Both the position numbers and the translations under genes were made by a program. Shown here piece after piece: positions 37,305 to 41,553 of a DNA stretch of 64,000 nucleotides. Below the pieces are notes generated by a model. It worked only from the letters and a program-made list of their open reading frames with translations. It searched no databases and was not told the DNA's origin. This DNA comes from Sediminicola luteus. GTDB taxonomy: Bacteria; Bacteroidota; Bacteroidia; Flavobacteriales; Flavobacteriaceae. The stretch lies in the NCBI RefSeq assembly GCF_002514735.1, contig NZ_NBWU01000001.1, positions 124,001 to 188,000 on the forward strand. The letters are read 5' to 3'. The stretch's first letter is position 1, and each line of letters opens with the position of its first letter.

Positions 37305-38501
37305 GTGAAACATATTATTCGGTTTATGCATGAAAAACTCGTGTCAATATTCCTTGCGCCAGAATTCCGTAAAATCCTTCAGAAATTGGCCGACCTGGCG
37401 TCTCCTAGGCAATGGCCCGAAAAAATACTCCACCCCCTTATTTGGACATTGGAATTTGTTGCCATTCCCTGCCTAATCCTTCTTGCAGTATTTGGTGTTT
37501 CCCTTCTACTTAGAAAAGAATATCATTATCGAATCCGTAAACCTAAACTAGAGGTCATTCCTGCCAAAATAGACCTTTTTCTTGCGGAAATACTTTTTAT
37601 GGATTTTCCGATAGATCAAATTTCCGATGAGGTGATTCGATTTAAAAATCAAATCCCTTTCCATCGAAATTGGTGCGAAAATTTGGTGTTATCCAAGTTT
37701 CTAGACCTAAAAAGAAATGTTTACGACTTAAACCTTGATGCCGTCTCTCGCATTTATTCGGGATTCGGCTTCGAAAACCGAAGCGCCGAACTGATTAACA
37801 ATCCAGACCCTTACCAAATAAAACTTGGTATCAGACAAATTCAAATTCTCGAACTAAAATCAAAAAGACGCGAAATCAGGAATATCTGGCAATCCAACCA
37901 GGATGACCTGGAATCTACCAGTCTAATTGCCTTAATAGCCTTGGCAGACAACAACTTGGAAGCCTTGCAACATTATCGAGGCCCCATGCCCCTTTCTGAC
38001 GAAATCCGCATTCTGGAAATCTTAGAAAGAAACCCTTCATGTATACCGAACAACATTCATAAGTTATTGCGATCTAACAATCCCAGCCTAATTGTACTGG
38101 GCATAAAAATTATGGGAATAAACAATAACCGAGTCTCATTGGAAAGAACCAAACGTTTACTGAAACATAGTTGCCCAAAGGTAAGGAGGGCAACCATAAG
38201 GCAACTCTCTTCTTGGGCACCCGCCTACACGGTAGAATTATTAATCGAAACCTACAAAAGAGAGAACGAATCGAGTATTAAGACCCTTATCATACAATTA
38301 TTGGCACTTCAAGGTAATCAAAGTAGCCTCAGCTTCGCACGCATCTGTTTTATCCGTGAACGGGATCCCCTACTTAAATTCGAACTACTGAAATGTATCC
38401 AGGCCCTAGACAAAAGATATTTTGAATCGCTGGATGCCAATCGTATACCCGACCACTACCTGGTTTCGGAAATGATCAACCATATTAAAGAAACCCAGTA
38501 G
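37305..38501 (+). CDS. HEAT-repeat-like membrane protein of the polysaccharide locus
   Basis: A 398-residue protein. One membrane helix is clear at residues about 50-69 (FVAIPCLILLAVFGVSLLL), preceded by an amphipathic N-terminal region. Residues 85-398 are all helical, with HEAT-like repeats such as SLIVLGIKIMGINNN and CPKVRRATIRQLSSWAPAYT followed by SSIKTLIIQLLALQGNQSS. Likely a membrane-anchored scaffold or regulator for the GT2 synthase encoded 3 nt downstream. The start is uncertain: GTG 37305 as drawn, or ATG 37326. HEAT proteins beside GT2 and YaiO genes recur in Bacteroidota (general knowledge). Confidence 0.65.
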   Translation: MKHIIRFMHEKLVSIFLAPEFRKILQKLADLASPRQWPEKILHPLIWTLEFVAIPCLILLAVFGVSLLLRKEYHYRIRKPKLEVIPAKIDLFLAEILFMDFPIDQISDEVIRFKNQIPFHRNWCENLVLSKFLDLKRNVYDLNLDAVSRIYSGFGFENRSAELINNPDPYQIKLGIRQIQILELKSKRREIRNIWQSNQDDLESTSLIALIALADNNLEALQHYRGPMPLSDEIRILEILERNPSCIPNNIHKLLRSNNPSLIVLGIKIMGINNNRVSLERTKRLLKHSCPKVRRATIRQLSSWAPAYTVELLIETYKRENESSIKTLIIQLLALQGNQSSLSFARICFIRERDPLLKFELLKCIQALDKRYFESLDANRIPDHYLVSEMINHIKETQ

Positions 38502-38504
38502 ATA

Positions 38505-39928
38505 TTGGAACTCACCAAGGACTTTTTATTCGGGTTACAATTTTTCGGGGCCTTGTATGCCGTCTGTTACCTAATCAGCTACGTTAGCTTAGGCGTTTTT
38601 TCGGTTAGAGCCTTGCGGATATACAACAAAAAAAAACCTTTCGCATACAACGAGATCCTAAAAAAATCTGAACACACCCTAGGGGTTTCAATTATAGCTC
38701 CCGTATACAACGAGTCGGAAACGGCCATTTATTCGATTAAATCATTATTAGCCCAAGAATACGCCAAATTCGAAGTGATAATCGTTAATGATGGCAGTAC
38801 CGACAACACCTTGGAACTTATATCAACCGTCTTTCAGCTAGAACAGATTCCATATTATAAACCCAGTCAGATACCCACACAAAAAATTAAAGGTTGTTAT
38901 CGTTCCAAGAATCCGGCCTATTCCAGGTTAATGGTTCTTGACAAGGTAAATGGTGGCAGCAAAGCTGACGCTTCCAATGCAGGTATAAACGCATCGAACT
39001 ACCCCATATTTATCTGTACCGATGGCGACTCTATATTACGCAAAGACAGCATTGCCCAACTTATTAGACCATTTATAGAAGAGAAAACAAGGGTTATCGC
39101 CACTGGGGCCATGATCCGAATTTCAAACGCTTGTGTATTTACAGACGGAGCCCTTACCCAATCCAATTTCCCGAGCAACTTTCTGGCTCGTTTTCAAGAA
39201 CTGGAATACATTCGATCTTTTCTTTTTGGCAGAATGGCATTGGGACATATCAATAGCCTGTTATTGGTTTCAGGCGGCTTAGGCATGTTCGATAAGGAAA
39301 TAGTTATAAAGGCCGGAGGCTATTGGCATAAATCACTAGGAGAAGACCTAGAACTGGTCACCCGAATGCGCATCTTTATGCACGAACAAAAAGAAGAGTT
39401 CCTTGTCGATTATATACCCGAAACCCTTTGCTGGACGGAAGTACCATCCAATCTTAACATATTTATTCGACAACGGGCCAGGTGGGGTCGCGGGCTAGTA
39501 CAAACCCTATTTCAACACCGTAATACCTTAGGTTCTCCTATGTATGGCAGAACAGGCTTATTGGCCGTACCCTATTTTTTTTTTTTGAGTTCGGTATCCC
39601 TATACTAGAACTACTAGGACTTATAGCCCTTGGCATATATTTCTTCTTCTTTAGTATTGATTACCATTTTCTATGGGTAGTTAGTTTGTTTATATATCTC
39701 GTCTACACTACCCTGACCATAATAGCCGTGTTTATCGATCAATTCTTTTTTAAGCATTATGCCAACATGCGCCAAATATTGATCTTAATCGGTACGATTT
39801 TCTTGGAACCCATTTTATACCACCCCATAAACACACTTTCCTATTTAAAAGGGTATACCCAGTTTTTGTTCCGTCGCAGACAAAAATGGGGCGCTATGCC
39901 CCGAAAAGGATTCGAAATATCAAGCTAA
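38505..39928 (+). pseudogene. GT2 family glycosyltransferase (PgaC-like synthase), split by a frameshift in a 12-T run
   Basis: The first part (38505-39608, TTG start 3 nt after the HEAT stop) has one N-terminal TM pair, then SIIAPVYNESETAIYSIKSL, VIIVNDGSTDNT, TDGDS, GEDLELVTRMR, and RQRARWGRGL, i.e. the full catalytic domain with the RxxRW product motif. It runs into a stop at 39606-39608, after tat-ttt-ttt-ttt-ttg. The other frame continues without a stop from 39587 to 39928 and encodes the expected C-terminal TM helices (FGIPILELLGLIALGIYFFF, FIYLVYTTLTIIAVFI...) and a basic tail. One extra T in the run (or two fewer) gives a continuous protein of about 474 residues. As sequenced, the product lacks its export channel segments. 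It may be phase-variable, an assembly error or a true pseudogene. Confidence 0.85.
39575..39586 (+). repeat. Homopolymer run of 12 T inside the GT2 gene
   Basis: Twelve consecutive T between codon tat and gag/ttg. The run falls exactly at the junction between the catalytic domain and the C-terminal membrane segments. It is by far the longest T-run I noticed inside a coding region here and is a classic slippage site. Confidence 0.95.
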
Positions 39929-39932
39929 AACC

Positions 39933-41168
39933 ATGAAGAACCGAATCGGTATTTTAACGTTATTCTTTTGCTTTAATCACTTGGTTTCTGCCCAACAGAT
40001 CGATACCGACAGTTTATTGGTGGCAGCCTATGGTTATTATAGGGCCCAAAACTTTGAACTGGCCCAAGAAGCAACTGAATTAGGAATTCGCCTTAGCCCC
40101 GATTATCTCGATTTTCAGTTACTCTTAGGTCGATTAGCCCAAAAAAAAGGTGATTCCGAAAAAGCCCAAGACCTATTTGCCCTTGTCCTTGAAAAAGACC
40201 CTAGATACGAAGAAGCTTATCTACCCCTTTCCCGATTGTACCGGGCCAATGGAGACCAATCACAAGCCAAAACCATAGTAAACCAAGGTTTAGCTGCTTT
40301 TCCAAACAACATTGAATTACTTCTCGAAAAATCGAAATATCTCAAGGGAAAGAGCAAAAGGGCATATCTAAAGGAGCTAGAGGCCCGTTTTCCGAACGAC
40401 AGCTTACTCCAAGCTACAATACACAAAAAAAGAATTCCGGTCACAGCCGATCGTTTGGCTACAGGTTACAACTACACTGCCTTTGATCGCGAGGGTGCCG
40501 GGCCTTGGCACTTGGCCAGCCTAGCCTATATTTTGGAACGACCCGGTTTTGCCATTATTCCGCGCATAAACTATAACGAACGTAGAGCTTTGGGCCTTTC
40601 GACAGGAACTGGCTGGCAACTCGAAAGTGACCTATACCTGAACCAAGTAAACGGAAATTATCATTTTATAAAACTCGCTTTGGGAGAAACGCCCATTTTC
40701 CCCAAATTTAGGGCCTCGTATTCCCACTATTTTAACATCGCTTCTTCTTGGGAATTGGATCTTGGGGCCCGTTATCTAAATACCGCGAACAAAGACCCAT
40801 ATGCCGCCGTAGCAGGTATAGGCTGGTATACCGGAGACCATTGGATCTATTTAAAAGGCTATGCGACTTTTGACGAGAACTACAGCTACCCTTCCCTAAA
40901 CCTTTCAGCCCGAAAATATTTTAAAGACCGTTACCAATTCCTAGGAATTTTGATTGGCTATGGAAACTCACCCGATGACCGGGTAAACCTAAACAGATTG
41001 GACCGCTTCCGGGCATTAGATGCCTATAGCGCGGGGCTTAGAGGACAAAGCCCTATTGGCCGCCATTTAATCTTGGGGGTCGGGTTTACCTACAGTTACC
41101 AAGAATACATTAAAGACCGATTTCAGAACAGCTTCGACACCAACCTTTACTTGCAATACAAATTTTAA
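39933..41168 (+). CDS. YaiO family outer membrane beta-barrel protein with TPR region
   Basis: A 411-residue protein with a signal peptide (cut after VSAQQ near residue 22). Residues about 25-165 are TPR-like (FELAQEATELGIRLSPDYL, AQDLFALVLEKDPRYEEAYLPL, AKTIVNQGLAAFPNNIELLLEK). The rest is a YaiO-type beta-barrel with alternating strands: GPWHLASLAYILERPGFAII, GTGWQLESDLYLNQVNG, and the terminal aromatic FDTNLYLQYKF. It starts 4 nt after the GT2 stop. TPR plus barrel is the usual layout of the secretion porin for synthase-dependent polysaccharides (PgaA/AlgKE-like), fitting an export role for the GT2 product. Confidence 0.85.
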   Translation: MKNRIGILTLFFCFNHLVSAQQIDTDSLLVAAYGYYRAQNFELAQEATELGIRLSPDYLDFQLLLGRLAQKKGDSEKAQDLFALVLEKDPRYEEAYLPLSRLYRANGDQSQAKTIVNQGLAAFPNNIELLLEKSKYLKGKSKRAYLKELEARFPNDSLLQATIHKKRIPVTADRLATGYNYTAFDREGAGPWHLASLAYILERPGFAIIPRINYNERRALGLSTGTGWQLESDLYLNQVNGNYHFIKLALGETPIFPKFRASYSHYFNIASSWELDLGARYLNTANKDPYAAVAGIGWYTGDHWIYLKGYATFDENYSYPSLNLSARKYFKDRYQFLGILIGYGNSPDDRVNLNRLDRFRALDAYSAGLRGQSPIGRHLILGVGFTYSYQEYIKDRFQNSFDTNLYLQYKF

Positions 41169-41181
41169 ACGCTACCACCTA

Positions 41182-41553
41182 ATGAAAAAAATCGTATTAA
41201 TCGAGGACGAAAGCCTCACCGTAAAAATTCTGGAATTCCTTCTAAAAAAAGAGGGTTACGACATATCGGTGGCCAAAGACGGCAACCAGGGTATGGAACT
41301 CTATAAAGCAACCCGACCCGAATTGGTCATAACCGATATTATGCTTCCCTTCAAATCCGGATTGGAGATTACTGCTTATATCAAAGAACACGACCCGAAC
41401 ACTCCCGTGATCATACTCTCGGCCTTGGGCTCGGAAAAACAAACCTTGGAAAGCAGTAAACGTATAGGGGCCGATGCCATTATCGCCAAACCCTTTTCAA
41501 AATCGGAAGTTTTGGACAAGGTGCATTTTTTCACCCAAAATGCCCGGGCCTAA
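41182..41553 (+). CDS. Stand-alone response regulator receiver protein
   Basis: A 123-residue CheY-like receiver domain only. Acidic pair Glu8-Asp9, phosphoacceptor Asp52 (VITDIMLPFKSG), Ser80 in VIILSALGS and Lys103 in IIAKPFSKSE are all present. There is no output domain. It starts 13 nt after the YaiO-like gene and closes the polysaccharide cluster, so it probably controls synthase or export activity by protein contact (inference). No histidine kinase is in the window. Confidence 0.9.
   Translation: MKKIVLIEDESLTVKILEFLLKKEGYDISVAKDGNQGMELYKATRPELVITDIMLPFKSGLEITAYIKEHDPNTPVIILSALGSEKQTLESSKRIGADAIIAKPFSKSEVLDKVHFFTQNARA

Follow-up and report, generated by a model that had tools for sequence, protein, structure and literature searches.

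A GT2 synthase gene of Sediminicola luteus is divided into two reading frames by a run of T. Does this run represent a reversible switch of a surface polysaccharide, a site that is bypassed during expression, a lost gene, or simply a misread base? In the window, by which we mean the whole 64-kb stretch of DNA that was analysed, the run at 39575-39586 is exactly 12 T long and lies in the context CCCTA-T12-GAGTTC. The coordinates that an earlier note on this DNA gave for the split, with one frame reading from 38505 to a stop at 39606-39608 and the other covering 39587-39928, are confirmed. The run and its surroundings are as follows.

37305-38501, + strand: membrane protein whose weak match to HEAT_2 stays under the curated cut-off; upstream operon gene, order conserved
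38505-39608, + strand: GT2 synthase, frame-0 product of 367 aa, with TTG start, N-terminal TM, GT2 catalytic domain and QRARW
38628-38636, + strand: A9 homopolymer within the synthase gene, coding for Asn-Lys, in frame; exceeds every A run in 60 orthologues
39575-39586, + strand: 12-T run, putative slippage site, made of Phe codons; the heptamer U UUU UUG lies at its 3' end; no A/T run of the genome is longer
39587-39928, + strand: membrane part at the C terminus of the synthase, open in the -1 frame, 113 aa plus stop
39606-39608, + strand: frame-0 stop codon TAG, 19 nt past the T run
39933-41168, + strand: TPR plus YaiO outer-membrane beta-barrel protein; order conserved
41182-41553, + strand: single-domain response regulator; order conserved

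Two frames of one synthase

The distance from the start of the first frame to the end of the second (39928-38505+1 = 1424 = 3x475-1) means that either one additional base or the loss of two bases joins both frames. It had been claimed that 13 T or 10 T would restore a product of about 474 residues. For 13 T this holds, as one added T gives 474 aa without any indel relative to intact homologues: the joined frames read PYFFFFEFGIPILE, and the intact Belliella homologue, in the same register without indel, reads PYFFFFEFIVPILE. With two fewer T, the product is one residue shorter than the homologue register. Besides the break at the T run, there is no further stop or lesion in the gene. Homopolymer length sets the frame inside the synthase ORF, as expected of a contingency locus, and the run is also of the kind expected of transcriptional slippage, that is, at least 9 A/T with a second ORF open one nucleotide slip away. 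The slippery heptamer U UUU UUG is present as well. As for a ribosomal frameshift aided by a stem-loop, the fold downstream of the heptamer is not unusual (z -1.21). The A9 within the same gene is a possible second slippage site.

Could the C-terminal helices be translated from a start of their own and then join the short form again? The C half has an open frame under constraint, but this frame contains no ATG, GTG or TTG between about 39521 and 39685, and the first start, the TTG at 39686, is already within the membrane part. Moreover, the homologues are all single chains. Separate translation of the C half was thus ruled out for want of a nearby start codon, and we find an arrangement of two polypeptides scarcely credible.

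The encoded protein matches the Pfam GT2 family (PF00535) with 74.4 bits against a gathering cut-off of 23.3. It resembles PgaC/IcaA and cellulose-synthase-like GT2 enzymes in its GT2 fold, its QxxRW-type motif and its C-terminal TM helices, and the intact Maribacter orthologue matches PDB cellulose synthase (BcsA) chains across the break region. Its top NCBIfam match is PgaC_IcaA (TIGR03937), yet the 367-aa form, which was the one scored, reaches 115.6 bits against an equivalog cut-off of 422.3, and its operon partners (HEAT, YaiO and response regulator) also differ from those of PgaC/IcaA; by the TIGR03937 model, applied to this form, the synthase would not be a PgaC. As a GT2 synthase with a YaiO outer-membrane partner, it belongs among genes for surface structures. 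The DGD, ED and QRARW motifs are all within the 367-aa part, and three C-terminal hydrophobic segments are in the severed part, so that the catalytic domain is kept and the membrane segments are lost with 12 T, in line with the earlier note. That note also placed the run at the exact domain boundary, which is approximately right: the break, ~30 residues past QRARW (323-327), interrupts the first of the hydrophobic segments at the C terminus (350-401).

Constraint on the severed half

The severed C half is as similar to orthologues as the N half predicts (mean z +0.73), and the C-terminal part shares 47% identity with the orthologue of Maribacter halichondriae. A TTG start is found at the same position in Maribacter and Flavobacterium orthologues, by which a damaged start codon was ruled out. 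In addition, the order HEAT-GT2-YaiO-response regulator is the same in Maribacter, Flavobacterium and Belliella, and the operon is intact here, which bears out the claim that the rest of the locus is sound. Further damage had been named as the sign of a simple pseudogene, and the gene contains none. An old pseudogene was ruled out on these grounds, namely that the severed half is under normal constraint and that no other damage is present. Because the severed half is normally conserved and the operon is both intact and conserved, the break would appear to be either recent, reversible or bypassed, or else a base-call error, rather than the mark of long decay.

The run among homologues

We identified 119 homologues in 116 of 397 family genomes (E <= 1e-60). 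In all but one, the frame stays open for 475 codons or more; the T12 gene of S. luteus is the sole truncated one (368). The split is thus not conserved, and a conserved programmed frameshift in the synthase was ruled out, since every other homologue found is single-frame. Nor is the run itself kept in relatives: 60 orthologues that were checked do not exceed 8 T at the site, and anywhere in the gene they reach at most T8 and A8, as compared with T12 and A9 here. In orthologues with four Phe at the site the run is interrupted by TTC, which can be a matter of chance, with Phe codons being 61% TTT here. A family-wide search for the pattern TA-T9..GARTTY, with the positions of its matches set against those of the 119 homologues, returned no other genome's synthase among the matches listed. 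As the run is common to no homologue examined, the alignments argue against a conserved switch. What remains of the phase switch proposed earlier is a run that sets the frame of a surface-structure gene; what it lacks is a homologue with a long run at the site or any second truncated copy.

Run length and the possibility of error

The genome was covered by pattern searches and by selected loci. In its 4.56 Mb, A/T homopolymers of exactly 9 occur 72 times and those of 10 ten times; there is a single one of 11, and the 12-T run, the only one of its length, is the longest. Because a geometric tail gives 0.24 expected runs of at least 12 (P about 0.22), run length alone is not significant and departs only mildly from expectation; of 199 family genomes, 144 contain runs of 12. 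The unusual feature is instead the position of the run in a conserved gene together with the broken frame.

The same facts raise the concern of a sequencing or assembly error, in which case the run would really be 13 T long and the gene unbroken. Runs of 12 T are where such errors concentrate, and this one, the longest in the genome, is known from a single genome. Moreover, all other family homologues found are intact and the severed half is normally constrained. However, none of the sampled coding A/T runs of 8-11 in this genome breaks a frame, except that of dnaX, where the A10 is conserved in the family, and the assembly (completeness 99.9%, 10 contigs) gives no hint of widespread indels. 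We regard an error as unlikely.

Several other runs were seen in this genome. A 25-G run (C1:944592-944616; L073:1501-1525) separates a TolC-like gene from one for a TPR lipoprotein. It lies ~217 bases upstream of the open frame of the latter and is a possible promoter-length switch or an assembly artefact. An A10 (L063:1501-1510) and an A9 (L118:1501-1509) stand 25 and 11 bases, respectively, before the ends of open frames, where run length may vary the C-terminal frame. Two G9 runs (C3:353124-353132 and C3:353317-353325) are less than 200 bases apart.

The run in dnaX

The dnaX gene of the same genome contains an A10 (C2:503988-503997, in L065:429-2200) after which the frame ends at once and the remainder is open in the -1 frame; it requires the same shift as the T12 of the synthase. 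Such a run was present in 30 of 30 dnaX loci, from 29 relatives and the own genome (L065 and L138-L166, of which L155 ends at a contig edge), being A10 in 26 and A11 in four. In these loci, one frame is open for ~200 codons or more after the run, and the other two close within 0-8 codons. The open frame differs among genomes, the tau part being in frame 0 in some and in -1 in others, a pattern suggesting that the slippage element is conserved while its phase changes from genus to genus. A two-ORF dnaX with 10 A has been explained as transcriptional realignment (PMC3711429), and slippage at an A9 is known for Thermus dnaX (PMC1088944). Given that the run is conserved and that these cases have been published, the organism probably performs in dnaX exactly the shift that would complete the synthase, and whatever reads through dnaX could also give some full-length synthase. 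The idea that RNA polymerase slippage rescues expression, raised in the earlier note, is thus strengthened, indirectly and by analogy, by the A10 and A11 runs of the own genome and the family. The synthase shares with dnaX (PMC1088944, PMC3711429) a long A/T run, predicted short and long products and, as regards the own dnaX, the direction of the shift. The two differ in that the dnaX run is conserved in the family whereas the GT2 run is confined to this genome. The family-wide dnaX run would also offer an in-genome yardstick for the frequency of slippage by RNA polymerase or the ribosome.

It is conceivable that 12 T is the fixed state of the species and that stuttering of RNA polymerase gives a stable mix of short and full-length protein, after the manner of Thermus dnaX or of tssM1. 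The shift has the direction of that in dnaX, the severed half is constrained, and bacterial RNA polymerase favours poly(T) (PMC6260861). The layout is also nearly identical to that of tssM1 in Citrobacter rodentium, in which an A11 gives both protein lengths through RNA polymerase slippage (PMC4256274): in both genes a stop follows just past the run and a needed C-terminal domain is out of frame, and full-length TssM1 arises through nucleotides added to the mRNA. However, the tssM1 run is poly-A, was studied by mass analysis of mRNA and has a similar case in Yersinia, whereas the run here is poly-T, is absent from relatives and is known from sequence alone. Furthermore, the split occurs in no other homologue, unlike that in dnaX, and for a ribosomal version no stimulator was seen, the fold being unexceptional. 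Such a settled state at 12 T seems unlikely to us.

Discussion

The explanation that we favour, with belief and doubt about evenly balanced, is that a slippage site has arisen from a Phe motif coded entirely by TTT, that it was caught one base short, and that its OFF state is probably leaky. The motif PYFFFFE is typical of the family and stands where the first C-terminal membrane helix begins; with all four Phe coded by T, it would form a slippage-prone run. The isolate's 12 T, one below what the frame needs, would yield a 367-aa protein comprising the GT2 catalytic domain without the C-terminal helices, a form from which neither synthesis nor export of polymer is expected. Slippage during replication of the run might then lose and restore the frame at a high rate, which would make it a potential on/off switch of an exopolysaccharide. 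The OFF state would probably be leaky, since some 474-aa enzyme could be made either by RNA polymerase adding one U or by a -1 shift of the ribosome on U UUU UUG. It has been found that the RNA polymerase of E. coli slips on runs of at least 7 T, with a preference for T over A (PMC6260861).

The closest functional parallel may be PNAG in staphylococci. In Staphylococcus aureus, slipped-strand phase variation in icaC turns PNAG off, and the non-mucoid off variants take over cultures (PMC4117637). In both systems a frameshift by repeat slippage in an exopolysaccharide operon truncates a protein, and in icaC the intact form returns by the reverse slip. They differ in that icaC has a tetranucleotide repeat and that its variants and their reversal were proven experimentally, whereas the gene here has a mononucleotide run of T, encodes a GT2 synthase and is represented by one allele.

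The icaC precedent can also be read in another way, as its off form grows better in culture (PMC4117637): the T12 might be a loss-of-function allele of recent origin, in which a slip of one base became fixed through drift or growth in the laboratory. The genome contains a second synthase homologue, intact and of 481 aa, on contig C3 (L167, C3:391000-401000), and this second GT2-YaiO cluster could make the polymer dispensable. Neighbours of the second synthase are another YaiO-type gene and a response regulator. Against a fresh loss, there is no further lesion, and the start codon and the operon are intact; moreover, an allele of a T run would still be revertible, and would thus grade into the slippage site that we favour. 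Taken as a distinct explanation, we consider it very unlikely. Reversible, selected phase variation is compatible with the sequence, and we do not set chance or culture-selected loss below it. One point against switching is that a single run length is on record, from one genome.

It would be tempting to combine the two levels. If the species lives with T12, RNA polymerase slippage might set the ratio of short to full-length enzyme, for which the dnaX run is the precedent, while a T12/T13 switch in DNA would act on top of it, giving a two-tier control of exopolysaccharide that is both graded and on/off. This idea is speculative, and we think it decidedly unlikely.

In the literature searched, the coverage of which was incomplete, no case of mononucleotide phase variation in Flavobacteriaceae was found. 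Annotation pipelines will label such genes as pseudogenes despite the normal constraint on the severed part. If our preferred explanation is true, the T run of S. luteus would be a mononucleotide slippage switch in the exopolysaccharide synthase of a free-living Flavobacteriaceae bacterium.
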